Part shown: positions 9,296-30,963 of the stretch, piece by piece
Numbering within the stretch: position 1 is the first letter of the stretch
How the letters are laid out: each line of letters starts with the position of its first letter
Origin: an uncultured Bacteroidales bacterium
GTDB taxonomy: Bacteria > Bacteroidota > Bacteroidia > Bacteroidales > FEN-979
NCBI GenBank assembly: GCA_903875045.1
Contig: CAIQUS010000141.1
Coordinates: 1-35,432, forward strand
DNA: 35,432 bases
Direction: 5' to 3'
Translations under genes and position numbers: made by a program
Notes under the pieces: generated by a model
Database searches by the model: none
Told to the model about the DNA's origin: nothing
Seen by the model: the letters and a program-made list of their open reading frames with translations, nothing else

Positions 9296-11077
9296 CTATA
9301 AAACACCACCCCGTTTTCTGAATTCACGGGCGAAATATTCGATCGAATCGCGGTTGGTGGTGTTATTGAGATAATAAAAATAGAGGCTTCTATATGCTTC
9401 TTTAAGTTCAGGATCTATTACAAGTGAGCGGCGCCATAGTGGTGCCGCTTTTTTTTCCTCTCCGCAATATACCATGTACAACCCCAGGTTATATATAGCT
9501 ATTGAGTTTAAAGGATCGAGGGTTACAGCAAGCTGCGAACGTTCAACAGCCTTTTTATATTGAGCCTGTTCGAAGAACCGCCGTGCAGTTTCAACACACA
9601 ACTTTACATAATTGGCATTTCCTTCAGGTTCCGTGAATCCTAAAGCCCGAGCTTCATTGAAAAGTAAAAAAGCGGAATCATAAGACTTCTTGTCAACAAA
9701 ATAGATCATACCTAAATGGTAAAGAAATCGTGGATGCTTTTTTATGCTGATGGCTTTTCTCAGGTGATATTCAAAGGAGGGATAATCCTGTTGTTTGAAA
9801 TAAGAGCGCCCCAGGAAGTAATGAAACCAGGCTTTCCCGGGTTTATAAACAATAGAAGAACCCCAAAAAGAATTGGCATCTTTGTATCTTGTTCCCAAGA
9901 ACATGGAATTAATGGCAAGTGTAATCATCACAATAGTAAGCCAGGCAATATTTATGCGCAAATTGAGCTTTACCCATCTCTCTGGAATAATAACCAATAG
10001 TGAAATCAGTAATCCAGCCAGCGGCAAATATGACCGGTGGACAAGGTAATCATAGTTATCGGCAGATGTATCCAGCCTGACAAACATATTCGGTAAAGAA
10101 AAAGCCACGTACCATATTATTCCAAAAACAAATAGCCAAACAACTTTCTCTTTACTGATCAGGAAAAAACCTAGAATCAATATTGATATCAGTATACCTA
10201 TTCCTGTGTAAAGAGAGGTGTAAACTGGTGTTACTGCCAGATTGAACGGAAGAAAAAATTTTGCAATGATTTCGAATGGAAAAGGGAAATTCGCCCATAT
10301 AGCCCAAAGTCCCAGTTGCCAGGTGCCTACTCTTGAAATAGATGTTGTTCGAAGGATAAACCAACCAATGGTGATTAAAACTATTCCAGAAAATAGCATA
10401 GCCGTCCTCTTGTCCCAGGTTAATTGCTTTGTTGAAAAGAGATAAATAATCAATAAAACAGGTAATAAAATTCCAGATTCTTTTGAAAAAAGTGCTAATG
10501 CGAAAGAAAAAATGGAAGCAAGGAGTAATAAAGGTTTTCTTTGCCGGAACCAGATAATGCTAAGTGAAAGGAAGAGTAATCCAAAAAGAGTAACCAAAAG
10601 ATCATTTCTTGCAGGAATCCAGAAAACTGCACTTGCCATCAAAGGGTGAATTGAAAAAATAACAGAACCGGCAAATGCTTTTTCACGACTTAACCCAAGA
10701 AGTTGAAGCAACCAAAGCAGCGTAATGCAACAAAGTATATGATACAGCAGGTTCATGAAATGATAGAATCCCGGTTTTGTTCCCGCCACCTGTGAATCCA
10801 ACATCAATGAAACATTGAGCATAGGCCTGTAATAAGGGCTGGTATTGTTAAAAAATGCATCCGTTTTAAAGGTCTTTAAAAAATTATCAGGGTTGGTAAT
10901 TTTAGCCTGATTGTCGAGGATCAGAATATCATCATCAAAATAGACATAGCCATTGCGCAAAGAAGGAATAAACAATACCAATGGAATGATTATAAGCAAT
11001 AAGTATGAATACTTTAGCACTGCATTACCAGATTCTGATTTTTTATTCTTCTGTGAAATATTAGAAACTCTCTTCAT
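9296..11077 (-). CDS. TMTC-like membrane protein with TPR repeats (subfamily B)
   Basis: A 593-residue inner-membrane protein. About 10-11 hydrophobic spans precede C-terminal TPR-like repeats (about 420-590; HYFLGRSYFKQQDYPSF and NLGLYMVYCGEEKKA are two of them). The first external loop carries YFDDD (acidic residues 48-50), the position of the metal/lipid-sugar-binding acidic motif of GT-C glycosyltransferases. Later signatures are PYYRPMLNVSLM, HPLMASAVFWIPARNDLL and YDYLVHRSYLPLAG. This architecture matches TMTC (DUF1736) proteins, whose animal members are O-mannosyltransferases; the bacterial substrate is unknown. It is closest in this window to the protein at 29188-30963. The ATG at 11077 is preferred over one at 11137, because it gives a short Lys-rich cytoplasmic tail like its relatives and has GGGGA about 10 bases upstream. 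Confidence 0.8.
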   Translation of the reverse strand: MKRVSNISQKNKKSESGNAVLKYSYLLLIIIPLVLFIPSLRNGYVYFDDDILILDNQAKITNPDNFLKTFKTDAFFNNTSPYYRPMLNVSLMLDSQVAGTKPGFYHFMNLLYHILCCITLLWLLQLLGLSREKAFAGSVIFSIHPLMASAVFWIPARNDLLVTLFGLLFLSLSIIWFRQRKPLLLLASIFSFALALFSKESGILLPVLLIIYLFSTKQLTWDKRTAMLFSGIVLITIGWFILRTTSISRVGTWQLGLWAIWANFPFPFEIIAKFFLPFNLAVTPVYTSLYTGIGILISILILGFFLISKEKVVWLFVFGIIWYVAFSLPNMFVRLDTSADNYDYLVHRSYLPLAGLLISLLVIIPERWVKLNLRINIAWLTIVMITLAINSMFLGTRYKDANSFWGSSIVYKPGKAWFHYFLGRSYFKQQDYPSFEYHLRKAISIKKHPRFLYHLGMIYFVDKKSYDSAFLLFNEARALGFTEPEGNANYVKLCVETARRFFEQAQYKKAVERSQLAVTLDPLNSIAIYNLGLYMVYCGEEKKAAPLWRRSLVIDPELKEAYRSLYFYYLNNTTNRDSIEYFAREFRKRGGVL

Positions 11078-11267
11078 TGGTTCATCCCCATTAAAAACAT
11101 TTTGTAAATATGCAAAAAAATAGCAGATTAATCGCATAATGATTCTTTATCACTGAAGGATTCCTGAAGTTAAAAGCAATCAAAACAATCATACAGAAGC
11201 AATGAATGGAGTAACTACAAAGATGTCATTCCTTGCTGATTCACCTATATGTAGTTGAGATATTTTC

Positions 11268-11275
11268 TATATTTG
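11268..11275 (+). promoter_or_regulatory. Candidate Bacteroidota -7 promoter box
   Basis: TATATTTG fits the Bacteroidota consensus TAnnTTTG and lies 20 bases before the ATG at 11296, in the divergent gap (11078-11295). No convincing TTTG -33 element is seen at the usual spacing, so the call is tentative. Confidence 0.4.
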
Positions 11276-11295
11276 CCAAATTAAAATCGCATCCA

Positions 11296-13854
11296 ATGTT
11301 AAAGAAGAATAGTGAACCGTTTTTTCAGTCGAAGATATTGTGGAGCGCTGTAATTTTCGCGGTTACACTGATTGTTTTTTTCCCAACCTTATTCAATCAA
11401 CTTACCAATTGGGACGACCGTGTATATATCAGTGAGAATTCCTATATCCAGGTGATATCATGGGATCACATAAAATGGATTTTCAGTAATGCTTACATGG
11501 GAAATTATCATCCATTAACAATGATTTCACTTGCCATTGATTATCAAATCAGTGGAATAAACCCATTTACCTATCACTTTACCAACCTGTTACTGCATGC
11601 AAGTAACGCAGTGCTGGTATTTCTTATCATTTTTGCCTTAACCGGGAAATTTAACCTTTCTGTAATTGCAGGATTGCTTTTTGGTGTTCACACCCTTCAT
11701 GTTGAATCGGTTTCGTGGGTTTCTGAAAGAAAAGATGTATTATATGCTTTTTTTTACCTTCTTGCGCTGTATAGTTACGTCCGGTACAATAAGAAAAAGG
11801 AAAGGAAATGGTATTGGTTCAGCATCAGCTTCTTTATCTTGTCACTTTTCTCTAAAGGTCAGGCAGTTTCATTGGCTGTTACCTTGTTCCTGGTTGATTA
11901 CTTACAGGGAAAAAAATTATTTGATGCTAAGAGTCTGATTGATAAAGTTCCCTACTTTATTCTGGCTGCAATATTTGGTATGGTAGCCATCCAGGCCCAA
12001 CAGGGTGTTTCAGCCACTGAGATGGTTCATACTGAAGGACAACAGCGAATTTTCTTCTCCTCGTATGGCTTTCTTCTATACCTTGGAAAACTGATCCTGC
12101 CGATATTCCTATCAGCTTATTATCCATATCCGAATCTTTCACCAGGCGCAGATTTACCAATAATCTACTATCTTTCACCCATTTTTGTTGTTGCATTTTT
12201 TTCGCTACTCTTTTTTACTTTTAAACGGTCAAAACCTGTATTTTTTGGATTGAGTTTTTTTCTGGTAAATATATTCCTCCTGTTACAGTTGCTGCCTGTG
12301 GGGGGAGCTATCATGGCAGACAGGTATGCCTATATCCCCTCTTTCGGATATTGTTTTCTGTTTGGATACATAATTACAGAGAAAAAATTTCTACCCAATA
12401 TCAACGCTCCATATATTTTTGCCGGTATTTATTTGCTGTTATTGGGTGCAATGACATTTGGGAGAACAATGACCTGGAAAAATAATTTCACACTTTGGAC
12501 GGACGTTGTTCAAAAGAACAGCGAGATTCCTCTTGCATGGTACAATCTGGGCAATGCACATAGCGATACCGGAAATTATGCAGTTGCCATATCAAATTAC
12601 GATCAATCAATACGGGTTTCTCCTTTGTATTACAGTGCGTATATCAACAGGGCCAATGCAAAAACCAAGACAAACGATTACGTAGGGGCCATTGAGGATC
12701 TTAATTTCGTTATTTCGCATGATTCATCGCTTGTAAATGCGTACATAAACAGGGCCCTTGCGCGACGTAGTTTAAAGGATTATAAGGGTGCCATTGCTGA
12801 CTATGAGGTTGCTATCAGGATGAAGCCAGATCAACCTGAACTTTACCTGAGCAGAGGGAATGTACTCTTCGACATGAACGATAATACCGGTGCTTTAAAA
12901 GATTTCACCAAGGCACTGGAAATAAAACCCGGAATGTTAGATGCCTATGCCAACCGGGCTTTTGTAAAGAAGGCGATGGGAAACCTTGCAGGAGCCATCG
13001 GTGATTATGACAAAGCTATTGAAATCCAGCCCGAGAACAGTGAATTTTATAATAACCGGGGGAATCTGCGCTTTCAGTTGGGGCAAAACAAGGAGGCGAT
13101 CGCTGATTACGGACGCAGTATGAAAGCTAAACCTAAGGATTATCTTGCCTATAAAAACAGGGGAGCGATTTACTTTATACAAAAGGATTACCAATTGGCA
13201 TTAAATGATTATTCGGAAGCCATCAGGTTCAATACCGGGATGGCTGATCTATGGTTTACAAGGGCACTCATTAAAAAGGCTATGAATGACATGACCGGTG
13301 CAACAGCTGATTATAAAAAAGCAGTTGAAACTGATCCCAATTTCGGTGCCGAATCCTACAGTAAAAACTTAGGACTAAAGCCAATACAAACCACCCCACC
13401 GTACGAGCAATTCAATAAAGACGCACAGGTTTTAGATGGTCAGGGGAAATATCAGGAAGCGATTTCAATGTATAAGCGTGCGATTGAGCTGAAAGCAGAT
13501 TACTATGAAGCATGGTTTAACCTTGGGAACACATACGGAAAAACAGGAAAGTTTGTGGATGCCATTGCCTCTTTCAACCGGGCCATCGCCGCAAAAAAAG
13601 ACTATGCAGAAGCATTTGCCGGCCGAGGTATTGCCAATGCAAGTGTTGGAAAATTCCAGGAAGCATTGAAAGACATGAGTGCTGCCATCAAGATAAAACC
13701 TGATTACGCCATGGTATTTTTAAACCGTGCCTTAATTTATCTTAACACCGGAAAAAAAGACCTTGCTTGTGTTGACCTCCAGAAAGCTGTTCAATTGGGG
13801 TATAAAGAGGCTTACGAGATATATCAAAAAGAATGTCAGGGGAAATCAAAGTAA
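11296..13854 (+). CDS. TMTC-like GT-C/TPR protein with long TPR domain (subfamily A)
   Basis: An 852-residue membrane protein. The N-terminal half (about 1-410) has around 10-11 membrane spans, with NWDD in the first external loop (D40, D41), NYHPLTMISLAIDY, HTLHVESVSWVSERKDVLY and MADRYAYIPSFG motifs. The C-terminal half (about 420-850) holds about twelve TPR units of 33-34 residues, many ending with alternating helix motifs such as AYINRA and AI.DY..AI. TPRs normally mediate protein binding. Family knowledge (TMTC/DUF1736) suggests an extracytoplasmic glycosyltransferase using a polyprenyl-phosphate sugar; the acceptor is unknown. The frame extends upstream to a TTG at 11233, but the ATG at 11296 gives a normal Lys-rich tail. 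The next gene starts 26 bases after the stop. Confidence 0.85.
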   Translation: MLKKNSEPFFQSKILWSAVIFAVTLIVFFPTLFNQLTNWDDRVYISENSYIQVISWDHIKWIFSNAYMGNYHPLTMISLAIDYQISGINPFTYHFTNLLLHASNAVLVFLIIFALTGKFNLSVIAGLLFGVHTLHVESVSWVSERKDVLYAFFYLLALYSYVRYNKKKERKWYWFSISFFILSLFSKGQAVSLAVTLFLVDYLQGKKLFDAKSLIDKVPYFILAAIFGMVAIQAQQGVSATEMVHTEGQQRIFFSSYGFLLYLGKLILPIFLSAYYPYPNLSPGADLPIIYYLSPIFVVAFFSLLFFTFKRSKPVFFGLSFFLVNIFLLLQLLPVGGAIMADRYAYIPSFGYCFLFGYIITEKKFLPNINAPYIFAGIYLLLLGAMTFGRTMTWKNNFTLWTDVVQKNSEIPLAWYNLGNAHSDTGNYAVAISNYDQSIRVSPLYYSAYINRANAKTKTNDYVGAIEDLNFVISHDSSLVNAYINRALARRSLKDYKGAIADYEVAIRMKPDQPELYLSRGNVLFDMNDNTGALKDFTKALEIKPGMLDAYANRAFVKKAMGNLAGAIGDYDKAIEIQPENSEFYNNRGNLRFQLGQNKEAIADYGRSMKAKPKDYLAYKNRGAIYFIQKDYQLALNDYSEAIRFNTGMADLWFTRALIKKAMNDMTGATADYKKAVETDPNFGAESYSKNLGLKPIQTTPPYEQFNKDAQVLDGQGKYQEAISMYKRAIELKADYYEAWFNLGNTYGKTGKFVDAIASFNRAIAAKKDYAEAFAGRGIANASVGKFQEALKDMSAAIKIKPDYAMVFLNRALIYLNTGKKDLACVDLQKAVQLGYKEAYEIYQKECQGKSK

Positions 13855-13880
13855 AAAATACAAATGTCAAAATAAATCAC

Positions 13881-16376
13881 ATGAAGCAAAAACAAACCCA
13901 TAAACCTGTAAGCAAGCAGTCCACCAAAACTCCGGTAAAAAAGGAACTAAGTAAAACACCAACTACTCCGTTTTTTCTTGATCCTTATTTACAAAAACAT
14001 GGTTTATGGATCACACTGGGGCTTGTTTCGTTATTAATTCTATTGATTTTTCACAATTTTATTCTTGGCAATGTTTATTATTTATTCAAGGATATAGGGA
14101 GTGATACCGTTAATCAATCTTTTCCAATATATAAATCCTTAACAAAATACCTCAATTCTGAAGGTTTTCCACTGTGGTCGTTTGACCAGGGAATGGGGCA
14201 AGAAATAATATCTACAAGTTTAGTCGATCCATTCTATTGGATAATTTATTTTTTTGGTGAAAATAATGTCATGTATGGAATGCTATGGACTGAATTAACC
14301 AAAATTATTTTAACAGCTTTTGTTTTCTTCCAATTTCTTAAAGTCTTGAATTTGTCGAATACGAATGCCTTAATTGGTGCATTACTCTACTCGTTCAGTG
14401 GATTTATGATTGTCGGCGGCTCCTGGATCGTGTTTTCGGCAGAGGCATGCTACCTTGCGATTCTTCTATTGGGGTTTGAGAAATTATTTAAGCAGAATTC
14501 ATGGTACCTCTTCCCTATTGCCATAGCACTTATATGCATAATGCGACCCTTTGATCTGTATTTTTACGGTCTTTTCCTGATAATATATTTTCTTTTCAGA
14601 CATTTTTCATCAGATGATTTTTCATGGAAAAACCTTTTTTTCAATGGTGTTAAATTATTTGGACTGGCTTTACTAGGGATATTCATCAGTACTTTCTTCT
14701 TTGTTAGTGGCGTACAATTAATGTTAGACAGTCCGCGGGTTAGCGGAAGTTCTTCCTATTTCAACCTTTTACTTTCAAGATCCATATTCTTTATTGAGCA
14801 ACCTATTCATTATGTCACTGTACTTTTCCGGACTTTTTCAAATGATATGCTTGGTAATGGCAGCAATTTCAAGGGTTGGGGCAATTATCTCGAGGCCCCA
14901 ATGACGTATATCGGGATACTACCTCTGGTAATTTTTTCCCAGGTTTTTACCATATTAAACAAGAAGAAAAAAATCGTCTATGCAATTTTTCTTGCAGTTT
15001 TTATTATTCCGATCATTTTTCCGTGGTTCAGGTATGCATTTTGGGCATTTGCCGGCGATTATTACCGTGGCTTTTCTATTTTGGTCTCAATAACATTGTT
15101 ATTTTACAGCCTCCAGGTAATTCATGAAATTGAAAAACAGAATAAAATCAGTTTGGTTTTATTGCTGATAAATTCGGCTATCCTTCTCGTTCTCCTTTAT
15201 TATCCGTTTATCGGAATTGATCAGGTAATCAACAAACCACAGCAACTCATTGTCGCCTTGCTGATCATTGTATACAGTATATTAATTTACCTTCTGAGTT
15301 ATACCAATAAAAAGGGACCTGTGATGGCTTTGATTGTGATTGTCGTATTTGTAGAACTGGGTTATTTCAACTACAAGACGGTAAATGACAGAGTGTGTAT
15401 TACACACACAGAGCGCCTTCAAAAGGTCGGATATAATGATTACACCGTTGAAGCCTTAGATTTTATCAAAAAGCAAGATAATGGCTTTTTCAGAATGAAT
15501 AAGGACTATAATTCAGGCCCTACCATCCATAACAGCTATAACGATGCCAAGGCGCAAGGATATTTTGGGACGATGTCATACTATTCGTTCAACCAAAAGT
15601 ATTATATCCGGTTTCTTGAAGAAACTGAAGTTATTCATAAAGGGAATGAAACTGAGTCGAGGTGGGCTCCAGGATTGTCGGGACGGCCATTGCTGCAAAT
15701 TTTCGGAAGTGTTAAATATAACCTGAGTAAAAATCCCAGGCCGGTTTTTATGCAAATGGGCTATGATTCAGTAACTCAGATTGGAGACGTAAAGGTTTTA
15801 CAAAACCGGTTTTTCCTCCCTCTTGGGAATACTTATGATAAATATATTACGATCTCAAAATATCAGAAATTATCACGTTTACAAAAAGATCTTGTTCTAT
15901 TACAGGCTGTTGTTGCTGAAGAGCCTGTGAGCAGCGAATACTTGAAATTAAAGGAATTCAGCATTACCGATACCATGAAAATTCCGACCTGGGAGGCTAT
16001 CGGAAACGCTTGCCATGACCGGAAGCGGGATACACTTCAGATCACACATTTTTCGAATAACAAGATCAACGGCACAATTGATATTATGGAGCCCCAACTT
16101 TTATTCTTTAGTATACCTTTTGACCGCGGTTGGAATGCAAGAATAGACGGTAAGGAAGCAAAACCCATCCTTTGCAATCTTGGATTTAACGGTTTAATTT
16201 TAGATCCAGGCCGGCATAGCATTGAGTTATATTATAAACCACCATATTTCGCCACCACAATTATTCTTTCATTTGTTGGCCTGCTAATATATCTTATTCT
16301 GGTTGTAATTGACATCTCATTCAAAAGGAAAAAACAATCGAAATTAAATTCTGTTACTTCAGAGCCCAGTATTTGA
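13881..16376 (+). CDS. YfhO family GT-C membrane protein
   Basis: A protein of about 831 residues with around 12-13 membrane spans. The N-terminus is Lys/Thr-rich and cytoplasmic. The first external loop has DIGSD, then FPIYKSL and GFPLWSFDQGMGQ, which is the YfhO pattern. The large C-terminal external domain ends with the family signature: LLFFSIPFDRGWNARIDGKEA followed by a glycine-rich turn and the last membrane span. Known YfhO proteins in Firmicutes help glycosylate cell-envelope polymers from lipid-linked sugars; here the acceptor is unknown. An ATG at 13833 in the same frame would overlap the TMTC gene by 22 bases; I prefer 13881, just after that gene's stop. It is probably co-transcribed with the TMTC gene. 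Its 3' end overlaps the convergent GtrA-like gene by 23 bases. Confidence 0.82.
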   Translation: MKQKQTHKPVSKQSTKTPVKKELSKTPTTPFFLDPYLQKHGLWITLGLVSLLILLIFHNFILGNVYYLFKDIGSDTVNQSFPIYKSLTKYLNSEGFPLWSFDQGMGQEIISTSLVDPFYWIIYFFGENNVMYGMLWTELTKIILTAFVFFQFLKVLNLSNTNALIGALLYSFSGFMIVGGSWIVFSAEACYLAILLLGFEKLFKQNSWYLFPIAIALICIMRPFDLYFYGLFLIIYFLFRHFSSDDFSWKNLFFNGVKLFGLALLGIFISTFFFVSGVQLMLDSPRVSGSSSYFNLLLSRSIFFIEQPIHYVTVLFRTFSNDMLGNGSNFKGWGNYLEAPMTYIGILPLVIFSQVFTILNKKKKIVYAIFLAVFIIPIIFPWFRYAFWAFAGDYYRGFSILVSITLLFYSLQVIHEIEKQNKISLVLLLINSAILLVLLYYPFIGIDQVINKPQQLIVALLIIVYSILIYLLSYTNKKGPVMALIVIVVFVELGYFNYKTVNDRVCITHTERLQKVGYNDYTVEALDFIKKQDNGFFRMNKDYNSGPTIHNSYNDAKAQGYFGTMSYYSFNQKYYIRFLEETEVIHKGNETESRWAPGLSGRPLLQIFGSVKYNLSKNPRPVFMQMGYDSVTQIGDVKVLQNRFFLPLGNTYDKYITISKYQKLSRLQKDLVLLQAVVAEEPVSSEYLKLKEFSITDTMKIPTWEAIGNACHDRKRDTLQITHFSNNKINGTIDIMEPQLLFFSIPFDRGWNARIDGKEAKPILCNLGFNGLILDPGRHSIELYYKPPYFATTIILSFVGLLIYLILVVIDISFKRKKQSKLNSVTSEPSI

Positions 16377-16770
16377 ATCCAGTAAAATTAATAACTATTA
16401 CTAAAGGAAGGATCAGGAACTGCAGGTAAAACGGGTCGGCCTGTGTTGTGGAAACCAATATTTTCAACAGCAATAAATTCAAGGTATAGGATAAGCAATA
16501 AACGATAAAATATTTAGGCAGCCTTTTTCTGAATTCCAATTTTTCGTCAGGTTTAAAGACTAACAGAAAATTAATTACATAGGTGAGTAATATTCCGAAC
16601 AACCAGGATATGCTAAAAGCCCAAAGATAGTGCATCGTAAGTATCCGAAGGCAAAAGAGGTAAACAAGCGTTGACAGTGCTGCATTTACCAATCCCACCA
16701 GAACATATTTATAGAACTGCAGGCTGAAAATATTTTGTCGGATAAGCCGTACCACAGGATGATTGATCAT
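16354..16770 (-). CDS. GtrA-like membrane protein
   Basis: A 138-residue protein with four hydrophobic spans (about 21-43, 48-70, 84-105 and 114-135) and the GtrA-family pattern: FYKYVLVGLVNAALSTLVY at the start, an N in the second half (TYVINFLLVF) and FxxKYWALK at the end. GtrA proteins are thought to flip polyprenyl-phosphate-linked sugars across the inner membrane. The start codon overlaps the preceding gene stop as ATGA, so translation is likely coupled. The gene is the last of the nine-gene minus-strand operon. With the two genes before it, it completes a gtr-type flippase/loader/transferase cassette. The 3' end overlaps the convergent YfhO gene. Confidence 0.85.
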   Translation of the reverse strand: MINHPVVRLIRQNIFSLQFYKYVLVGLVNAALSTLVYLFCLRILTMHYLWAFSISWLFGILLTYVINFLLVFKPDEKLEFRKRLPKYFIVYCLSYTLNLLLLKILVSTTQADPFYLQFLILPLVIVINFTGFKYWALK

Positions 16771-20327: not shown

Positions 20328-20777
20328 TTAAAAAACAAGTTTCATTATCAAGGAAGTTCCTTTTTTTTCAACCATGGTAAATCCATATTTTTCATATAAC
20401 TTCACTGCTGGCAAGTTTGCTATGTTTACTTCCAAAATAATTGTTGAAAAATTATTTGTTCTCGCCTGAAGAATAGACATTTTCAACAATATTGAAGCAA
20501 CGCCCAACCCCAAATATTCCCTTGTCACACTTACATTGGTAATATATGCTGACCGTGCTTCAAAGTCATTGAGATACACGGCAACCAATCCTACTAATCT
20601 GTTATTTCCCCATGCTTCAAATGTTGTAGCATTTTGGTGGATTTTTCTTGCGTATTCCTTAACATCAACTGTTTCCCTGAGATCCGGGATGAAATTACTG
20701 CTACATTCGATGAGGTGAAGATAAATTTCTTCCTCGGATGCGATCTTGGTTTTATATGTTATATCCTTTTGATTCAT
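20328..20777 (-). CDS. GNAT family N-acetyltransferase
   Basis: A 149-residue protein with the GNAT fold: a beta strand LVGLVAVYLND, AYITNVSVTREYLGLGVASILLKMSI (the V-x-x-x-x-x-x-G-x-G-x-A acetyl-CoA pyrophosphate loop, about 77-102), then NLPAVKLYEKYGFTMVEKKG near the end. The ATG at 20777 is 24 bases after the upstream stop; an in-frame TTG at 20798 is also possible. In an operon with a sugar aminotransferase, N-acetylation of the new amino group is the obvious role, as for aminosugars of O-antigens. Acetylation of a different substrate cannot be excluded. Confidence 0.82.
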   Translation of the reverse strand: MNQKDITYKTKIASEEEIYLHLIECSSNFIPDLRETVDVKEYARKIHQNATTFEAWGNNRLVGLVAVYLNDFEARSAYITNVSVTREYLGLGVASILLKMSILQARTNNFSTIILEVNIANLPAVKLYEKYGFTMVEKKGTSLIMKLVF

Positions 20778-20801
20778 ACCTGTATTTGAATGAAACAACT
20801 G

Positions 20802-21755: not shown

Positions 21756-21775
21756 AAATAAATCTCCTTTGAAAA

Positions 21776-22735: not shown

Positions 22736-22769
22736 ATTCGTAAATAATTATCAATGTTTGAAAGCAAGG

Positions 22770-23969
22770 TTAATACAGATCTACAAAAATATGGTCAGTC
22801 ATTCTATCAAGGTAGAAAATCATTTCATCCTGATTGTTAAACTTAAGGATAAAAGTTCCAAGTGTATTGTTGGAACCGTTAAATTTACTTACAGCATCCC
22901 CGGGTTTAATCAGGATATTCTTTTGTATTATTTTCGAACTCATTTCTTCATTGATATTGATACTTCTGACTATCCCATCGCTTTTTGCATGAAGGATATA
23001 TGAAGAATAAAACCCTTCAGTTTCAACCATTTTCAAAGCGGAACAATCTTTCCCAAGCGCACTATCAACAGACCAGGCGATCAAATCAACTCCTGTTGCG
23101 TGTTTTATTACTTCCGGGATTAAATTGCCCCCACTTCTGGGTCCTATTTCAAGTATAAAAATATTTCCATTTTTATCAGTCAGGTATTCAATGTTGAGGC
23201 CTCCCAGCCTCATGTTTAATTTGGTCAGGATGGATTCAATGATGTCATGGGCCTTTTGCTGAAGCGATTTTTCCTGAATGTACGGGAAGCTGATTCCCAT
23301 CGGAACATAAGGATTACAGTCCAGATCGTTATGCTGATTGCCAAAACATCTGAAGGCCAGTTTGCCCTGCCAGACAAATCCATCGCCATCCATTTCATAA
23401 ATTGCCTTTTCAATAAAATCTTCAACAACTACTATTTTAGCCAGAGAATACTTCAATGCACCATTGAATGAATCTTCAAGATGGTTAATGGTCAAATGCT
23501 TGGTAACGCCTTTAGATCCAGATGAATCAGCAGGTTTAACAACAATTGGATTACATTTAAGTCTTTCAAATGCGAATTCTTTGGCTTCCCGGAAATCGGT
23601 AAATGAGGCAGAAATTGGCACCAAGAGCCCATTGCTTTTTAAAAAATCCCTGAAAAGATCTTTTCGCTGCAGGATTTTAACCGATTCGTATGGATTCCCC
23701 GGAAGTGATAGTTTTTCGGCCACGTAAGCTGCTGCAGGAGCTCCCGGGTCGGAGGCATAGGAAACAATCCCATCGATTCTAAGCTTTTCAGCCAGTTCTA
23801 AAACCTTCTTCTCATCAGTAGTGCTAACATTATAATATTCATCTGAATATTTATGTCCAGGATTTTCGGGCAGGTAATCAGCTGTAATTACATGATATCC
23901 GGCATTTTTAGCATATTGTATTGCAGGTATCTGGAAATGGCTGCCGCCCAGCATCAGAATTCTTTTCAT
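22770..23969 (-). CDS. ATP-grasp domain ligase
   Basis: A 399-residue protein. The pre-ATP-grasp Rossmann-like part (about 1-95) starts RILMLGGSHFQIPAI and includes ADYLPENPGH and IDGIVSYASDPGA. The ATP-grasp fold follows, with VVKPADSSGSKGV (K145, glycine-rich lid; about 143-155), then E261 and EIGPRSGGN (E274, N282), the metal-binding end. ATP-grasp enzymes join a carboxylate to an amine or thiol through an acyl-phosphate. The overall form is that of carbamoyl-phosphate-synthase/PurK-like ATP-grasp ligases found in polysaccharide clusters. The ATG at 23969 follows the aminotransferase stop by four bases, so the two are very likely translated together. An amide linkage of an amino acid or other acid to the new amino sugar is my inference. 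Confidence 0.8.
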   Translation of the reverse strand: MKRILMLGGSHFQIPAIQYAKNAGYHVITADYLPENPGHKYSDEYYNVSTTDEKKVLELAEKLRIDGIVSYASDPGAPAAAYVAEKLSLPGNPYESVKILQRKDLFRDFLKSNGLLVPISASFTDFREAKEFAFERLKCNPIVVKPADSSGSKGVTKHLTINHLEDSFNGALKYSLAKIVVVEDFIEKAIYEMDGDGFVWQGKLAFRCFGNQHNDLDCNPYVPMGISFPYIQEKSLQQKAHDIIESILTKLNMRLGGLNIEYLTDKNGNIFILEIGPRSGGNLIPEVIKHATGVDLIAWSVDSALGKDCSALKMVETEGFYSSYILHAKSDGIVRSININEEMSSKIIQKNILIKPGDAVSKFNGSNNTLGTFILKFNNQDEMIFYLDRMTDHIFVDLY

Positions 23970-23973
23970 AGAA

Positions 23974-25086
23974 CTATTTCCCAACAGATTTAATTAGTTC
24001 ACAAATTCTCCTAACATCCGAAAGTTCCAGATCAGGATAAATTGGCAGGCAAAAAACTTGTTTTGTTTTGAGTTCAGCAACGGGTAAATTAGCAGGATTG
24101 GAAGAAGCCAGTCCTTTGTAGGTTGGGAATTGACTAATTAACGGGTAGAAGTACCGACGTCCGAAAAATTGATGGCTTTTCATCAACTCGTTGAGTTCAT
24201 CCCGGCTCATGCCAAAAGTTTTTTCATCAATAAAAACCGGGAAATAGGGGTAGTTGTGTTTAACCCCGCTAAGTTGATTCTGATAAGTGAGACCCTTGAC
24301 ATCACAGAGTAATTCTTTGTACAATTCACAAATGATTTTTCTTTTTTCGATGGCATGTTCTACATATTTTAGCTGAAGCAAGCCAAAAGCCGATTGTACT
24401 TCATTCATTTTGGCGTTTATCCCGGGTGCTACAACTCTTAATTCACCATCATAGCCAAAATTCTTAAGGAAATCGATACGTGTTTTGGTTTTCTCATCGT
24501 GACATATTATTGCACCGCCTTCGATGGTATTAAAAACTTTTGTTGCATGAAAACTCAAAACAGATAAATCGCCAAAGTTCAATAACGAGTTGCCATTAAT
24601 CTGAACACCAAAAGCGTGACAAGCATCATAGATGACTTTTAATCCATAAGCATCGGCGATTTTTTGAATTTTATCCACCTGACAGGGATTGCCGTAAACA
24701 TGAACTGGCATGATAGCTGTAGTCTGCGGTGTAATAGCAGCTTCTATTTTATCGGCATCCAGGTTGCAAAAGTCAGCCTCAACATCGACAAAAACCGGTT
24801 TAATTCCATTCCACCATAAAGCGTGGGTGGTAGCGACGAAGCTAAACGGGGTGGTAATCACTTCACCGGTAATTTTCAGGGTCTGCAGGGCAGTTATCAA
24901 TGCCAGCGTCCCATTCGAAAAAAGTGAAATATACCTGACTCCTAAGAAATCAGCGAGTGCTTGTTCAAATTCCTTGTGAAAAGGTCCGCTATTGGTCAGT
25001 ATTTTATTATCCCAGATTTGTTTCAGTAATTCGGTAAATTCTTCAAGTGGAGGAAGAAAAGGCTGGGTTACAAATATTGGTTTCAT
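23974..25086 (-). CDS. DegT/DnrJ/EryC1/StrS PLP sugar aminotransferase, VioA-like
   Basis: A 370-residue fold type I PLP enzyme. Seen: TNSGPFHKEFE, SNGTLALITALQ, TTPFSFVATTHALWWNG (substrate loop), VIYDACHAFG (D154, binds the PLP pyridine nitrogen) and SFHATKVFNTIEGGA with the Schiff-base lysine at K183, then GINAKMNEVQSAFGLLQL. The pattern closely matches VioA-type enzymes that make dTDP-4-amino-4,6-dideoxyglucose (viosamine); the assignment is from memory of the family, and relatives acting on C3 are possible. The ATG at 25086 begins the operon; an in-frame TTG at 25092 is a weaker alternative. The supply of the dTDP-keto sugar (RmlA/RmlB) is not in this window. Confidence 0.85.
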   Translation of the reverse strand: MKPIFVTQPFLPPLEEFTELLKQIWDNKILTNSGPFHKEFEQALADFLGVRYISLFSNGTLALITALQTLKITGEVITTPFSFVATTHALWWNGIKPVFVDVEADFCNLDADKIEAAITPQTTAIMPVHVYGNPCQVDKIQKIADAYGLKVIYDACHAFGVQINGNSLLNFGDLSVLSFHATKVFNTIEGGAIICHDEKTKTRIDFLKNFGYDGELRVVAPGINAKMNEVQSAFGLLQLKYVEHAIEKRKIICELYKELLCDVKGLTYQNQLSGVKHNYPYFPVFIDEKTFGMSRDELNELMKSHQFFGRRYFYPLISQFPTYKGLASSNPANLPVAELKTKQVFCLPIYPDLELSDVRRICELIKSVGK

Positions 25087-25112
25087 GTACAAGATTTTTT
25101 CCGTTCAATTGG

Positions 25113-25120: not shown

Positions 25121-25199
25121 TTGATTAATTTTCAACCTTTGTAAAAAATCTGTCAGTCAATACAATACAGAACTCCATTTCAAGGTAACCTGGGAAATG

Positions 25200-27194
25200 T
25201 CACCCTCCCTTTCTTTTCAATGTCTCCAGCAAACTTTCAGAAACCGGGTAATTGAGTGATTTGGCTTTTATGGCATATTGGTAAGCCTTATGGTAATCTT
25301 TCAGTTCGTTGTAAATTGCAGAGATGTTATAGTTTGCATGTCCATTTGCCGGGTTTAATGCAAGACATTGCTCGAAATCGGCCAGTGCTTCGGTACGCTT
25401 TTTAAGCATTAAGTAACAGTAGCCTCTGTCAAGAAAGTAATCGGCATTGCGGGGGTCTGATTTGATTACGCGAGTCAAATCAACAATAGCATCTTCATAG
25501 CGGCCCATATTCCGAAACATGACGGATCTGCTGATGTAGATTTCCATTGCGGCAGGATTTAAGGCTATCGCCTTATCATAATCCTTTATTGCCAGGTAAA
25601 ATTGTTTTGACGTTGAATAAATAACCGCTCTGTTCAACCTGGGTTTTGGGTCGAGGCTGTCAAGATCGATGGACTTGGAATAGGCAGCAATTGCTTTTTC
25701 ATTTTCACCACGAAGTTTGTATCCATTCCCAAGATTGTTGTACACCCGTGCATTATCCTGCCTGATTTGAACAAAGGCCAAAAAATCCGTCATCGCTTTA
25801 TCATAATTTTTCTGATTTACATAGTAAATGCCTCTGTTTTCATAGGCACAATAGGCAGTAGGGTATTTTGCGATTACATCGGTCCAAAGAGTTTCGGAAT
25901 TTTTCCAGACCATTGATTGTTTAAACATTATTGTTCCAAGGAAAATAATATATAAAAGAAATACACCTGTCAATATCCATCGAATTGAGCGCAGAAATTT
26001 GTTTTTGCTATAAAAAGCCTGCTCAAGATACCATGCAAAAGCGAAAAACAAGCCGATTGAACTGATATAGGCATAACGGTCGGCCATGATGGCATTTCCA
26101 ACCGGCATAAATTGCAAAACCAGCACAATGGAAAGAAAATAGAAAAGAAATCCGAAACCGAGTACTTTGGTAAACCGAACTGAATAGACTACCAGCCCAA
26201 TCAGGCCGGCAGCAATAAAAGGCGACAGATAAAAGATCAAAGGAAGACTCCCGGAGACAGTGACGTTCGGATATGGGTAGAAAGCAGACAGTTTCAGAGG
26301 CAAAAGCAAATGGTATGGATACATGAAAAAACCATAGGAAGCAAACATTACACGCTGAAATACAGTAAACACCTGCAAACCCACCTCGGCAAGATGTCCT
26401 TGTATCGTCATTGTAATAACTCCGAAAATAAATGAGAGGATTATAAACGGGATTTTTTCAAGGATCACACCAACCGTAAATTTTCTGTCATAAAAATAGT
26501 CGATTGAAAGTAAAATAAGCGGAAACACAACTGCCGAAGGTTTGGAAAAAAGTGAAGCTAAAAACAACATCCCTGTTATCAATAACCTCATCCACCCTTT
26601 TTTTTCAAGATATTGCATATAAACAACAAGCCCGGCGAGAAAGAAAAAGGTATATAAAACATCTTTCCTTTCGGAAACCCATGCAACCGATTCAACATGC
26701 ATCGGGTGAATAGCAAAAAGCAGGGTTGTGACTGTTGCAACGATTAGCCGTTTTCTTGACAACCTGTAGATAAAAGCAAAAACCAGCATTACATTCAGCA
26801 AGTGAAAGATCAGGCTCGTTGTATGAAAATATGAGGCATCCGGTTCAACGGCTTCTCCGGGAATGCCACTATTTTTCATAGCCAGCTTATAATCAATGCT
26901 TAATGATAACATTGTTAAAGGGTGATAATTGCCAGCTGAAGCATGGGTAAAAAAATACCGTACATTTTGCAGCACTGGTTGCTTTACCTGGTTATTTTCA
27001 AGGACATAAAGTTTATCATCCCAGTTTGTAAAATGGTTATTAATGGATGGCTTATACAGTAACCATGTAAGAATCAACAAAAATGCAACAACCACCCAGG
27101 GAAGCCATACCGGGGTAACAAATTTGTCACGCACACCGGTCCTGATATTGGGCGTTGATTGTTTTGTATCCTTCTTTTTATTGCCTTTTTTCAT
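25200..27194 (-). CDS. TMTC-like GT-C/TPR membrane protein (subfamily A)
   Basis: A 664-residue membrane protein starting with a Lys-rich tail. NWDD lies in the first external loop (D59, D60), then NYHPLTMLSLSIDYK, HPMHVESVAWVSERKDVLY and MADRYAYISSIG. About 10-11 spans end near residue 425. Six TPR units follow, the first beginning AYCAYENRGIYYVNQKNYDKA and the last YNISAIYNELKDYHKAY. It closely follows the pattern of the proteins at 11296 and 27205. The gene starts 10 bases after the preceding gene's stop, so it is the last gene in a three-gene TMTC-like operon. Acceptor and sugar are unknown. Confidence 0.85.
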   Translation of the reverse strand: MKKGNKKKDTKQSTPNIRTGVRDKFVTPVWLPWVVVAFLLILTWLLYKPSINNHFTNWDDKLYVLENNQVKQPVLQNVRYFFTHASAGNYHPLTMLSLSIDYKLAMKNSGIPGEAVEPDASYFHTTSLIFHLLNVMLVFAFIYRLSRKRLIVATVTTLLFAIHPMHVESVAWVSERKDVLYTFFFLAGLVVYMQYLEKKGWMRLLITGMLFLASLFSKPSAVVFPLILLSIDYFYDRKFTVGVILEKIPFIILSFIFGVITMTIQGHLAEVGLQVFTVFQRVMFASYGFFMYPYHLLLPLKLSAFYPYPNVTVSGSLPLIFYLSPFIAAGLIGLVVYSVRFTKVLGFGFLFYFLSIVLVLQFMPVGNAIMADRYAYISSIGLFFAFAWYLEQAFYSKNKFLRSIRWILTGVFLLYIIFLGTIMFKQSMVWKNSETLWTDVIAKYPTAYCAYENRGIYYVNQKNYDKAMTDFLAFVQIRQDNARVYNNLGNGYKLRGENEKAIAAYSKSIDLDSLDPKPRLNRAVIYSTSKQFYLAIKDYDKAIALNPAAMEIYISRSVMFRNMGRYEDAIVDLTRVIKSDPRNADYFLDRGYCYLMLKKRTEALADFEQCLALNPANGHANYNISAIYNELKDYHKAYQYAIKAKSLNYPVSESLLETLKRKGG

Positions 27195-27204
27195 CTATTC
27201 AATT

Positions 27205-29172
27205 TTATTGCGGGCAATATTGTTTCAAAAGAGGTTCTGCCGCATTAATCCCCAGTTTGAGCGCCTTTTGAAGATCATTGCAACAACTATCTGATTTACC
27301 TATTTCTTTGTATGACAAAGCCCGATAATAATAAACAAATTCAGAGGTTGGGTTGAGTGCGATGCAGGTTGAAAATGAATTTACTGCTTCGCTGAAATTT
27401 TTATCAAAATAGTAGGCCAAACCAAGTGAATAATAACATTTCGAGCAAGAAGCATTGAGCTTAATTGCTTCCTGAAAATCAGGAATGGCCTGTGCAAATT
27501 CTTTCAACTCATTTTTAAGGATACCACGGTTAAAATAGGCTTCTTCATTTTTTTCTTTTTCAAGAACCTTATCAAGGTCAGCCAGTGCACCAGGGTAATC
27601 TTGTTTCATCGCTTTCGCAATAGCCCTGTTGATATAGGCTTTTGTATACCCGGGAGAACACTTGATCGCCTCATCAAAATCTGAAATGGCCAGCTGGAGT
27701 TGTCCGCTCTTGCCATAAATACTGCCTCTGTTAAAATAAGCGTTGGGATTGTTCTTATTGACCTTTATCGAATTGGTATAAAGATTAACCGCCTCCTGTT
27801 TTTTGCCTTCCTCTTCATTCAGTAAACCCAGATTATTAATGGCAGGATAAAAATGCGGATATTTAACCATTACATCCGTCCAGAAGCTGCGACTGTCGTG
27901 CCAAACCATGCACCGTTGAAAGGTAATTGCTGAAAGCACCACAACATACAATATCAGCCCGGAAAACAAAAACACCTTTGCCGATTTGAATTTCTGAAGG
28001 AGAAAACCAAAGCCCAATGCCATGAGGAAAAAGATGCCAAAGGAAGATAAATAGGTATAGCGGTCGGCCATCACGGCACTTCCTACAGGGAATAGCTGAA
28101 GAACCAATAACACATTCAGGATGAAAAACAACATTCCAAATACTATTTTACGGTCGGGCCGGACAAACCAATAATAAAACAGCAAAAGGACAAAGGCCAA
28201 AGCCGGAATTAATGAAAAATAGTACATTCCCGGCACGTAGCCCGTTGCCAGATCAGGATAGGGATAGTAGCCGCACAATTTGTAAGGAAGAACCAGCTTT
28301 ATCAGGTATTGTGTCAGTCCAAACGAGGCAAAAACAATCTTTCCCAAAAAACCGGCTTTTACAATATCGGTTGCCCCCTGTGCCTGCTGAACCATTATGG
28401 CAATAATTCCAAAAATCAAAGAGAGCAGGAAAAAAGGAATTTTTTCAAGAATAACTGATTTGTTCATGAGATCTCTCCGGTAGAAATAATCAAGAGCTAC
28501 CACTGATAATGAAAGTGTAACTGCCATTCCTTTTGACAGCAATGACAAAACAAAGAAAACCAGGGCTAAATAATAACTTTTTAAGGATTTTTTATTCAGG
28601 TACCTGATATATGACATCAAAGAAAGAAGGTAAAAACAGGTGTAGAGCAGATCCTTTCTCGCTGCTACCCAGGCAACTGATTCAACATGCAATGGATGGA
28701 TGCCAAACAAAAGGGCGGTGAGGGAGCTTAGCATAACCCCGTACTGAAGTCCGGGGTTGGAGTCGGACCTTAGCCGGACAAATAGCAGCATGGCCAGTTG
28801 AAAAACCAGGAATGTATTAAAAAGATGGATAAGGATGTTGGTAAGATGAAATGCGGTTGGATTGAGTTCAGAGAAAGCGTAATTGACCATGTATGTTAAC
28901 AGTGTGAGGGGATGATAATTCCCCAGGTTGTTAGCATCTTCGAACAGAATGGTTTTCAAATTAGTTCCGGAAAATCCTTGAATAAATTTATTTCCATTCA
29001 CATATTGACCATCATCAAAGGTGATAAACAGATTCTTTATGGCCGGTATGAAAACAATGAAAGTCAGAATCAAAATACCGGTCAACCACAGATAGCTGTT
29101 TTTTGCCGGAAAGTCAGCGCGTAATGTTTCAGCAGGTTTCTTCGAAGGTTTCTTCCGCGGTTTCTTTTCCAT
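27205..29172 (-). CDS. TMTC-like GT-C/TPR membrane protein (subfamily A)
   Basis: A 655-residue membrane protein with a basic N-terminal tail (MEKKPRKKPSKK), FDD in the first external loop (D53, D54), NYHPLTLLTYMVNY, HPLHVESVAWVAARKDLLY and MADRYTYLSSFG motifs. Six TPR units occupy about 450-650. The ATG at 29172 is 15 bases after the upstream stop; the TTG at 29187 is an unlikely start. It is flanked on both sides by relatives, the middle gene of the trio. Functional inference as for the neighbours: a GT-C-type transferase with a TPR platform. Confidence 0.85.
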   Translation of the reverse strand: MEKKPRKKPSKKPAETLRADFPAKNSYLWLTGILILTFIVFIPAIKNLFITFDDGQYVNGNKFIQGFSGTNLKTILFEDANNLGNYHPLTLLTYMVNYAFSELNPTAFHLTNILIHLFNTFLVFQLAMLLFVRLRSDSNPGLQYGVMLSSLTALLFGIHPLHVESVAWVAARKDLLYTCFYLLSLMSYIRYLNKKSLKSYYLALVFFVLSLLSKGMAVTLSLSVVALDYFYRRDLMNKSVILEKIPFFLLSLIFGIIAIMVQQAQGATDIVKAGFLGKIVFASFGLTQYLIKLVLPYKLCGYYPYPDLATGYVPGMYYFSLIPALAFVLLLFYYWFVRPDRKIVFGMLFFILNVLLVLQLFPVGSAVMADRYTYLSSFGIFFLMALGFGFLLQKFKSAKVFLFSGLILYVVVLSAITFQRCMVWHDSRSFWTDVMVKYPHFYPAINNLGLLNEEEGKKQEAVNLYTNSIKVNKNNPNAYFNRGSIYGKSGQLQLAISDFDEAIKCSPGYTKAYINRAIAKAMKQDYPGALADLDKVLEKEKNEEAYFNRGILKNELKEFAQAIPDFQEAIKLNASCSKCYYSLGLAYYFDKNFSEAVNSFSTCIALNPTSEFVYYYRALSYKEIGKSDSCCNDLQKALKLGINAAEPLLKQYCPQ

Positions 29173-29187
29173 GGTAAAAAGCAACAA

Positions 29188-30963
29188 CTAGTTTTTGTTA
29201 TATTTCAGATACTGGTTTTCAAAATAGCTTGCTGAATCCTTAAGATTAGTATTATTGGTGTAATAAAGAGCGAGATTTTTATAGGCACTGGCAACGGAAG
29301 GATCCGTTTGAATCACCTTTTTCCAAAGGGAAACAGCTTTTGGATGGTTTCCGAGGTTGATGGAAAAAAGGGCAAGATTCATCATGGCCACAGGATTTGA
29401 CGGATCATATTTCAGTGCGATCTCAACCCGTTCAGATGCTTTGGCATAATCACCGGTTTTTGAGATAGCGATTCCTGACTCCAGGCAAAGATTTACAAAA
29501 TTTTTCATCACATCCGGTTTGGTTTCACCCAAGCTGATGGCTTTGGTAAAATATGAAAAGGCACCTTCGAGGTTCTTTTTTTTCATCAATTCTATCATTC
29601 CCAGGTTGTAATAAAAAGTTCCGTACTCTTTTAAGCGAACAGCTTCAAGCAACTGTTCTTCAAACTTCACAAAATTTTCCTGTTTGAACTGATACCGGCC
29701 ATAAAAATGGTGAAACCAGGCCCGGTCGGGTGAAACTTTTAAAACAGATCCCCAGAAAGCCTCCCCATCCTTATATTTTCTTTCCTGTAACAGCGAGAAG
29801 AATCCAAGGATGATGAGCAGAATGGCGAGGATGACCCTTATTTGTTTTTTCTTCAAATCGACCCATGCTTCAGGACAAATTACAAGCAGCATCAACAGCA
29901 ATCCGACGGAAGGTAAACATGCCCTGTGTTCCAGATAATCATAGGAATCGCCGGCATTAAACATCCGGATGAACATATTGGGAATGATGAATGCCAGGAA
30001 CCACGCCAAACCCAGAAAGACAGTGGTGGTATTTTGTTTCCTGGTAAAAACCATCATGGCAACAAACGCAAGGATAATGATCAGGCCCGATAGTGTATAA
30101 AACAGAGAAAATACAGGCATCACAGCCAGGTCGAACGGAAGAAAGAACCGGGCAACAATCTCAGGAAGCATGGGGAGGTTTTTTATAATAGCACCTAATC
30201 CCTGCTCGTCACCCTGAAGTGTGCCGGTTGAACTGTTGCGTAAAAGGAACCATAACAGAATTATCATCAGCCAGCTGATGTACAATGTAATTTTGTACCG
30301 GTCAATTATCTGAATTTTGTTGATTAATATATAGAAAATAAACAGCAGCGGCAAGGCAATGGCTGACTCTTTTGAAAAAAAAGCGCAAGTAAAAAACAGT
30401 ATATGCAAGAAAAAGAATCTCCAGGATTTCTCACGGATAAACTGTAAAAAGCTTGCGAAGGCTAGTATTGCAAAAAGTGTGATCAATAAGTCATTGAGGG
30501 CCGGTATCCAAAAAACCGCATTGGCAATAAGGGGGTGTAAGGAGAACAGCAGTGCACCGATCAGTGACTTTGATTTGCTGAACCCAAGAAGCGTCAGCAA
30601 CCAAAGCAGACTGACGCAACTCAGACAATGAATGAGCAGACTTATCAGATGATAGACCATTGGACTGGTCCCGCCCAATTGAGCACCCAGCATAAGTGCA
30701 ACATTCAGTAATGGCCGGTAGTAAGGAACAGTATGCCCTAAAAAGACATCTGTTGTAAAGAGCATTCCCAGATTTGAGGCATTGCTGAGTTTGGCCTGGT
30801 TTTCGAGTACGAGTACATCATCATCGAAATATACAAAACCAAGATTCAGTGAGGTTAAATAGAGGGCAAAAGGAACAAGAAACACAATGATGCGCGAATA
30901 GTTAAATAAACGGTCGAATGGATCCGGTTTTACTTTTTTCACAATTGTATCATCTAAAAACAA
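29188..30963 (-). CDS. TMTC-like GT-C/TPR membrane protein (subfamily B)
   Basis: A 591-residue protein with YFDDD in the first external loop (D47-D49), PYYRPLLNVALM, HPLIANAVFWIPALNDLL and YDYLEHRACLPSVG, and about four to five TPR-like units from about residue 420 to the end. It is the closest relative of the protein at 9296-11077. No ATG is in frame: the longest frame starts with TTG at 30963, and GTG at 30942 is an alternative. An ATG at 30967 is out of frame by one base. It is the first of the three-gene TMTC series, 24 bases downstream of the rubrerythrin-like gene, so that gene may be its operon leader. Confidence 0.78.
   Translation of the reverse strand: MFLDDTIVKKVKPDPFDRLFNYSRIIVFLVPFALYLTSLNLGFVYFDDDVLVLENQAKLSNASNLGMLFTTDVFLGHTVPYYRPLLNVALMLGAQLGGTSPMVYHLISLLIHCLSCVSLLWLLTLLGFSKSKSLIGALLFSLHPLIANAVFWIPALNDLLITLFAILAFASFLQFIREKSWRFFFLHILFFTCAFFSKESAIALPLLFIFYILINKIQIIDRYKITLYISWLMIILLWFLLRNSSTGTLQGDEQGLGAIIKNLPMLPEIVARFFLPFDLAVMPVFSLFYTLSGLIIILAFVAMMVFTRKQNTTTVFLGLAWFLAFIIPNMFIRMFNAGDSYDYLEHRACLPSVGLLLMLLVICPEAWVDLKKKQIRVILAILLIILGFFSLLQERKYKDGEAFWGSVLKVSPDRAWFHHFYGRYQFKQENFVKFEEQLLEAVRLKEYGTFYYNLGMIELMKKKNLEGAFSYFTKAISLGETKPDVMKNFVNLCLESGIAISKTGDYAKASERVEIALKYDPSNPVAMMNLALFSINLGNHPKAVSLWKKVIQTDPSVASAYKNLALYYTNNTNLKDSASYFENQYLKYNKN

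Follow-up and report, generated by a model that had tools for sequence, protein, structure and literature searches.

The window analyzed here is the whole of contig C141 (35,432 nucleotides; CAIQUS010000141.1), part of the 5.96-Mb, 253-contig genome assembly of an uncultured Bacteroidales bacterium. An original prediction, made from the sequence alone, had described five membrane proteins between positions 9296 and 30963 that join a GT-C glycosyltransferase domain to C-terminal tetratricopeptide repeats (TPR) in the manner of the animal TMTC enzymes, together with one YfhO-type protein, and had read them as a glycosylation locus for surface proteins arranged around a glycan operon. The five GT-C/TPR open reading frames (ORFs) and the YfhO ORF were found in the places described, all of them open and intact. 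The genes of the window, with the names used below, are as follows.

1–2889, plus strand: giant SprB-repeat protein (T9a), C-terminal part only, ending in a type IX sorting tail and truncated by the contig start, the ORF being open at base 1; four stretches matching Pfam SprB, Por_Secre_tail above cut-off.
2970–4043, plus strand: secreted protein with a tail of the type IX kind (T9b), the seed of our local tail profile; same-place relatives in congeners, one with Por_Secre_tail above cut-off.
4106–6304, plus strand: protein with four cohesin stretches and a dockerin-like part; Pfam Cohesin E 1e-30, Dockerin_1 22.7 bits against a cut-off of 22.9.
6340–8406, plus strand: type IX-sorted protein (T9c); Por_Secre_tail 23.5 bits against a cut-off of 27, congener relatives tailed by the local profile.
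8826–9257, plus strand: small PepSY-like protein; PF11396 23.1 bits against a cut-off of 28.3, position kept in 12/12 loci.
9296–11137, minus strand: GT-C/TPR protein of subfamily B (GTC1B); Pfam, alignment and tree.
11233–13854, plus strand: GT-C/TPR protein of subfamily A with a long TPR tail (GTC2A); Pfam, alignment and tree; two options for the start (TTG 11233 or ATG 11296) and a 22-bp overlap with the start of YfhO.
13833–16376, plus strand: YfhO-family membrane glycosyltransferase, PgfM2-like; PF09586 233 bits, NCBIfam PgfM2 97 bits against a cut-off of 1500.
16354–16770, minus strand: candidate lipid-sugar flippase of the GtrA family, one of two GtrA genes in the genome; PF04138 76 bits against a cut-off of 26.
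16767–18572, minus strand: 601-aa membrane protein with no Pfam or NCBIfam match, an NDD motif past span 1 and a relative in congener G004 at 75%; by its sequence, possibly a further GT-C protein.
18569–19498, minus strand: GT2 of the GtrB/ArnC type, candidate polyprenyl-phosphate sugar synthase; match to structure 5eke, PgfS 224 bits against a cut-off of 500.
19527–20270, minus strand: methyltransferase (Pfam).
20328–20798, minus strand: GNAT acyltransferase (Pfam).
20802–21755, minus strand: GH32/GH130-like protein; Pfam matches weak, NCBIfam 44 bits against a cut-off of 450.
21776–22735, minus strand: GH32/GH43/GH130-like protein; Pfam matches weak.
22770–23984, minus strand: ATP-grasp ligase (Pfam).
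23974–25092, minus strand: DegT-type sugar aminotransferase; PF01041 336 bits.
25200–27194, minus strand: GT-C/TPR protein of subfamily A (GTC3A); AlphaFold models and Foldseek.
27205–29187, minus strand: GT-C/TPR protein of subfamily A (GTC4A); Pfam, alignment and tree.
29188–30963, minus strand: GT-C/TPR protein of subfamily B (GTC5B); PMT_2 above cut-off, alignment and tree.
30988–31443, minus strand: rubrerythrin-like boundary gene (Pfam).
31521–35225: fused oxidoreductase of 1234 aa (2Fe-2S, FAD/NAD and molybdopterin parts).

Pfam matches of the window proteins were taken at E 0.01 or less. All five GT-C/TPR proteins matched the GT-C model PMT_2, above the cut-off in one (29188) and below it in four, and the C-terminal TPRs that had been claimed were matched in all five, those of the gene at 9296 falling below the cut-offs. 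A reference set of 124 sequences was assembled, from which ORFs open at the end of a stretch, or matching the profile only weakly or over a short length, had been excluded; 72 of these were aligned at full length and 64 GT-C domains were aligned separately. The acidic motifs of the first external loop (EL1) proved to be as described, the Asp-Asp pair being invariant in 72/72 aligned members, and alignment and tree bore out the proposed division into subfamilies A (three genes) and B (two genes), each flank of the operon having genes of both. Using a profile of the five GT-C domains, we identified 25 family members on 14 contigs of the own genome, where a third subfamily (C) is represented by five members outside the window. 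The subfamily C genes lie at L119:7170–15079 (contig C166), L117:7593–9644 and L128:9585–11633 and possess loops of the PF08409 type. Clusters of A and C genes of varying size also occur in five congeners (G002, G003, G004, G013 and G018), either adjoining an SprB-type gene or on the same contig.

Gene 25200 was the one gene modelled, and for it the GT-C fold was seen. The full-length AlphaFold model, built on the alignment of 72 members, had a mean pLDDT of 94.3 and a pTM of 0.91, and six TPR helix pairs were counted after the membrane part. Among the 50 Foldseek matches listed for this model there was no GT-C enzyme, and TPR or other helical-repeat proteins stood at the top; the GT-C part was therefore modelled alone (64 sequences, pLDDT 95.6). 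The best PDB matches of this second model were the yeast oligosaccharyltransferase OST, PglB, Pmt4, ArnT and Pmt1-Pmt2. Ranks 1–18 were GT-C enzymes by title except for rank 8, titled as a translocon complex; E was below 0.001 in only two of them, and the best TM-score, normalised to the query, was 0.54 to Pmt4. Searching the PDB sequences with that of the GT-C domain returned nothing useful. As modelled, gene 25200 is a GT-C fold with a TPR tail. The original prediction of 10–11 membrane spans fared less evenly, as simple hydropathy gave 6–10 spans in the five window proteins, whereas the model helices and the loop charges of the 72 sequences fit 11, with span limits set by hand from the model. 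The fraction of Lys plus Arg in these sequences was 0.21–0.27 in the cytosolic loops, 0.055–0.11 in the outer loops and 0.126 in the TPR tail, a pattern that fits a location of the TPRs in the periplasm. The predicted topology hence has 11 spans, the N-terminus inside and a periplasmic TPR tail.

For human TMTC1, the accessible part of one report points to the DD of EL1, an Asp in EL2 with a Lys in EL3, an Arg in EL5 (within AER) and an SHKSYRP stretch in EL1 (PMC7801869). In our alignment the EL1 DD and the EL3 Lys were present in 72/72 sequences, the EL2 Asp in 67/72 and the EL5 Arg in 66/72; in subfamily B this Arg belongs to an HR motif that is shifted in the alignment. Inspected by eye, the TMTC/ArnT catalytic set was found in 25/25 own members, on the predicted periplasmic side, with EL5 motifs that differ by subfamily (DRY/ERY in A, HR in B and ERF in C), and YHP or YRP occurred in EL1 of all but one of the 25. 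The large copy number and the varied TPR tails could also suggest that many of the paralogues are by now non-enzymatic and serve as TPR assembly factors for surface fibres; the retention of the catalytic set in every own member makes this very improbable. The TMTC loop model DUF1736 (PF08409), for the loop between TM7 and TM8, gave no match to the five of the window up to E 10. It scored above the cut-off in two own paralogues, both of subfamily C on contig C166, weakly in three more C members and at E 1–3 in three A members outside the window, and the motifs of subfamily C read closest to those of animal TMTC. Since the window proteins were missed by this model, they are called TMTC-like, as in the original prediction, and are not assigned to TMTC.

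Beyond this genome, at least one family member was found in 43/61 relatives (own genome counted), in 18/19 genomes within the genus and in 26/147 other genomes of the phylum. Copy number reached at least 10–29 in 16 of the 61 related genomes; high values are lower bounds, as up to 29 candidates were scored per relative genome and up to 12 per other genome of the phylum. The scan of genome contigs confirmed at least 589 relatives, and the best 80 of these came mostly from Bacteroidota groups, with a few from Eisenbacteria, Pontiellaceae, Proteobacteria, Deltaproteobacteria and entries named only 'bacterium'.

The surroundings of the window genes were compared across 12 loci, namely that of the own genome and those of 11 congeners with the pair GTC1B/GTC2A or a GTC2A-like match; G005, which also matched, was left out. 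A B gene stands back to back with an A gene in 12/12 loci, and beyond the B gene lies the PepSY-like gene. Because the loci were picked by their match to the pair or to GTC2A, the presence of the pair is in part owed to that selection, which does not hold for its neighbours. A T9c-type protein comes next in 11/11 loci where the contig reaches that far, each of them type IX-tailed by the local profile. In loci with enough sequence, SprB protein, T9b, cohesin protein and T9c follow one another again in this order, with minor variations. YfhO is the gene immediately after GTC2A in 10/12 loci; in G015 a 138-aa ORF stands between GTC2A and YfhO and the latter is split into two ORFs, and in G014 YfhO is on a different contig. 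In the tree, the 12 GTC2A proteins formed one clade (support 100/100), and GTC1B fell in a subfamily-B clade that also holds the GTC5B genes. Given these conserved neighbours, acceptors would first be sought among the SprB and cohesin beta-domain proteins.

The sugar operon of the window, on the other hand, was found in only one of the 11 congener loci (G004), with nine genes at 62–93% identity and neither GTC3A nor GTC4A between DegT and GTC5B. Different genes fill the space past YfhO in the other congeners, and the far flank is formed by a rubrerythrin/oxidoreductase pair in the window, G004, G013 and G017. The neighbourhood survey proposed along with the original prediction thus returned a divided answer: the part comprising the pair, YfhO and the secreted proteins is kept in related genomes, but the same operon is not. 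As judged from sequence and gene order, the pair 9296/11233 with YfhO and the secreted proteins is the conserved element and the operon a swappable cassette. In the 10 cassettes of which more than about 4 kb could be inspected, a GT2 relative was present in nine (weak in G013, at 50 bits; none in G003) and DegT relatives in seven (window, G004, G018, G002, G013, G001 and G017). The GT2 and GtrA genes overlap in G002 and G018 and adjoin a DegT gene. The cassette of G002 (L148:807–3705) contains GtrA, DegT, a hexapeptide transferase and two FdtA-type genes, and FdtA-type genes were detected by local profile also in G018, G003 and G017. We take the set of FdtA, DegT and hexapeptide transferase to be the pathway for a 3-amino-3,6-dideoxy sugar, and a cassette of the G002 type looks like such a route. 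In G019, the gene for a small TMEM234-like membrane protein (L165:13997–14368; match below cut-off) overlaps a GT2 gene, and its product could be another kind of lipid-sugar flippase.

A further explanation of the locus has to be weighed at this point, namely that all of its GT-C enzymes act in the periplasm on lipopolysaccharide (LPS), on capsule or on a lipid-linked oligosaccharide, like ArnT or enzymes of the GtrC type, and that the secreted proteins are bystanders. Swappable sugar cassettes would go well with a surface glycan that varies, three-component modification systems employ pairs of the GT2/GtrA kind, and ArnT is among the structural matches; however, eight of the nine structural matches ranked above ArnT are protein-glycosylating enzymes by title, large, predicted periplasmic TPR tails suit protein acceptors and the neighbours that are conserved are of the secreted type. 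On balance this explanation appears unlikely.

With respect to the sugar donor, the window holds a GtrB-type GT2, a GtrA-family protein and dedicated GT-C enzymes (YfhO and the five GT-C/TPR proteins). The GT2 matched structure 5eke (glycosyltransferase sll0501), which we take to be GtrB, over residues 3–306 of 309 with E 3e-62; the next-best structure was ArnC, and dolichol-phosphate mannose synthase matched over the first part only. Hydropathy gave two spans for this GT2. YfhO had no match when searched against PDB sequences. A second, DPM-like GT2 gene was located at L119:15161–15982, where it adjoins the subfamily C cluster on contig C166. Its relatives stand beside TMTC-like genes in four congeners at 83–88% identity, as compared with about 44–54% for GTC1B/GTC2A there, and at 63–66% identity they overlap the end of a GT-C/TPR gene in L111 (11953–12711) and L081 (11844–12590). 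The best PDB match of the relative from G018 was the dolichol monophosphate mannose synthase 5mlz (E 6e-10, residues 5–173 of 248). A proposed Dpm1-like enzyme on contig C72 was rejected, as its best matches were other GT2 families.

At the end of contig C166 lies the N-terminal portion of a giant SprB protein (L119:3–1583; 74% to residues 1–529 of the one in G004), and the C-terminal part of that protein, by similarity to G004, opens the window (1–2889). The SprB sequences suggest that C166 and the window probably carry the two ends of one giant SprB-repeat protein, with the assembly broken in the repeats; contig C185 also begins inside an SprB-type protein, so that the join is only probable. 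If it holds, the island would comprise nine GT-C/TPR genes and two candidate donor synthases. Contig C166 also encodes a 1250-aa protein with several internal repeats (L119:2680–6432) that is related to a repeat protein of G004 and to a control-region gene of the own genome (L133).

We also examined whether YfhO and the family occur in the same genomes. A YfhO relative was found in 16/16 genomes with at least 10 family members against 5/45 of the others (61 genomes; Fisher 1e-10), and among the 147 other genomes of the phylum in three, all with the family (3/26 against 0/121, p 0.005), though these p values are optimistic, with independence overstated, because relatives share ancestry. Within the genus, the 13 genomes bearing YfhO have at least 10–27 copies and the six without it 0–3. 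Copy number rises with genome size (Spearman 0.53), and the two groups of the genus overlap in size. YfhO and a family gene are one gene apart in G196 and overlap by one base in L062.

Taken together, the fold, topology, catalytic residues, gene order and co-occurrence, known to us from sequence or prediction, point to a surface-protein glycosylation island that would use polyprenyl-phosphate sugars, a reading to which we assign a probability of roughly 50%. The donor, the acceptor, the reaction and the order of steps are what we infer. The cassette would make an unusual sugar nucleotide, possibly an amino sugar, which the GtrB-type GT2 would load onto polyprenyl phosphate; GtrA, or another flippase in other cassettes, would then turn the lipid-linked sugar outward. 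Drawing on the polyprenyl-phosphate sugars, YfhO and the TMTC-like GT-C/TPR enzymes would add single sugars to exported proteins in the periplasm, the TPR tail holding the acceptor. The likeliest acceptors would be the neighbouring SprB and cohesin beta-domain proteins, prior to their type IX secretion. A conserved island that pairs TMTC relatives with adhesion-type secreted proteins and swappable sugar genes suggests a little-explored kind of protein sugar-coating in bacteria.

Several observations weigh against the island reading, in addition to the shared ancestry noted above. GtrA was detected by local profile in only 4/10 cassettes in view (window, G004, G002 and G018), and no family member was present in the fetched stretch at 7/11 further YfhO places. 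Neighbouring operon genes were counted by blastp (E 1e-6, half coverage), and each was near a family member in at most two of 80 external loci (YfhO 2/80, DegT 2/80, GT2 1/80 and the other seven operon genes 0/80) and in 0/13 of the other own-genome regions. Elsewhere the family sits in mixed surroundings, such as genes for tRNA synthetase, elongation factor, hydrogenase and chloride channel (the Pfam neighbour scans covered 19 genes of the 13 own regions). Nor were type IX tails significantly more frequent beside family members, with 14/143 adjoining genes against 56/785 of all genes in the external loci (p 0.21) and 3/29 against 5/106 in control regions for the own genome plus window (p 0.37). 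A link of the whole family to the glycan operon was rejected on these neighbour counts, and a general link to type IX substrates by adjacency was not significant in either set. What stands of the original prediction of a glycosylation locus is therefore the surface-glycosylation setting, the GT-C fold, the TMTC-type residues and predicted topology and the conservation of part of the locus; the family-wide tie to the operon does not.

The same counts bear on an explanation in which two independent systems share one hot spot of surface genes, the cassette and YfhO decorating a glycan or lipid and the TMTC-like proteins glycosylating proteins with a donor of another origin, such as the product of the DPM-like GT2 of C166. 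Family members lie mostly far from such cassettes, and the DPM-like GT2 is highly similar where it stands beside TMTC-like genes in the four congeners and overlaps one in L111 and L081. In addition, lipoteichoic acid has been reported as the target of a GtcA-dependent three-component system in Listeria and Bacillus (PMC7389260). Against such independence stand the placing of GTC2A directly before YfhO in most of the loci, overlapping it in the window, the one-base overlap in L062 and a copy number that tracks the presence of YfhO; we regard two separate systems as rather improbable, though the most serious competitor of a single glycosylation island.

Three-component periplasmic glycosylation systems go by the names GtrA/GtrB/GtrC and CsbB-GtcA-YfhO. 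The window resembles them in having a GtrB-type GT2, GtrA and a YfhO GT-C protein in one locus, and differs in its additional TPR-bearing GT-C enzymes and secreted-protein genes and in belonging to Bacteroidota; the lipid intermediate is putative here. The Pgf system of Streptococcus mutans supplied the best NCBIfam matches, PgfS for the GT2 and PgfM2 for YfhO, but both scores lay well short of the equivalog cut-offs (224/500 and 97/1500 bits), as did the score for PgfM1 (47/1400). Cnm and WapA are surface proteins modified by the pgf operon, which in the accessible part of its description has four genes, none described as a TPR GT-C, in a different host and with different sugar genes (PMC5856776). 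The animal enzymes TMTC1-4 (CAZy GT105) share with our proteins the GT-C fold, 11 predicted spans, a C-terminus outside, a C-terminal TPR array and the EL1 DD, EL2 Asp/EL3 Lys and EL5 Arg residues. Unlike them, the window five fall below the DUF1736 model, which two sister paralogues on C166 reach, and here the enzymes are bacterial, have multiplied in a quarter or so of the relatives (the 16/61 genomes above) and adjoin a swappable sugar cassette. Prokaryotic homologues of TMTC have already been mentioned in print, in the accessible part of PMC7801869. The paralogue expansion, the block of adhesin, GT-C and YfhO genes and the swappable cassette were found in no title or abstract opening among the literature matches listed, a search in which subscription literature was mostly not covered.

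The suggestion in the original prediction that different TPR domains may select different acceptors has a printed parallel. The TPRs of human TMTC1-4 have been proposed, without proof, to recruit cadherin domains or select acceptors, as stated in the accessible part of PMC11292533. By analogy, the family could be a bacterial counterpart of animal cadherin O-mannosylation, with tens of paralogues whose TPR tails each recognise particular beta-sandwich repeats (SprB, cohesin and other type IX-exported adhesins) and with a cassette, exchanged between relatives, that sets the sugar; this is a tentative proposal and somewhat doubtful. If it were true, surface adhesins could be re-coated without a change of sequence. 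TMTC enzymes have been studied as cadherin mannosyltransferases of animals, and the present locus provides a bacterial setting where the removal of genes could probe TPR-guided choice of acceptor, and supplies candidate transferases for the glycans of surface proteins.

General O-glycosylation of Bacteroidota, with its motif D(S/T)X, is comparable in phylum and in its extracytoplasmic site; it is described as phylum-wide, whereas the TMTC-like family is patchy, as its distribution in the other genomes of the phylum shows. The motif D(S/T)(A/I/L/M/T/V) was rejected as an acceptor signal; the counts seen were compared with those expected from shuffling. It was not enriched in the SprB proteins (5 seen against 64 expected; 11 proteins), the cohesin proteins (5 against 19; 9 proteins) or T9c (19 against 25; 11 proteins), and it was enriched in T9b (24 against 12; 14 proteins). 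Other own proteins with type IX tails gave 45 against 34 (16 proteins) and control-region genes 167 against 111 (111 genes). Depletion in the SprB and cohesin proteins was also seen for the control motif N(S/T)X, and in SprB the reversed motif was enriched; these proteins being repetitive, the motif counts carry little weight.

The own genome (G000) possesses a very large type IX secretome, with at least 150 sorting tails (150 of 357 candidates were scored). Elsewhere in it, a GH92 gene (GH92 being an alpha-mannosidase family) at L116:14316–16694 adjoins two GT-C/TPR genes in tandem and, on its other side, the gene for a type IX-sorted subtilase.

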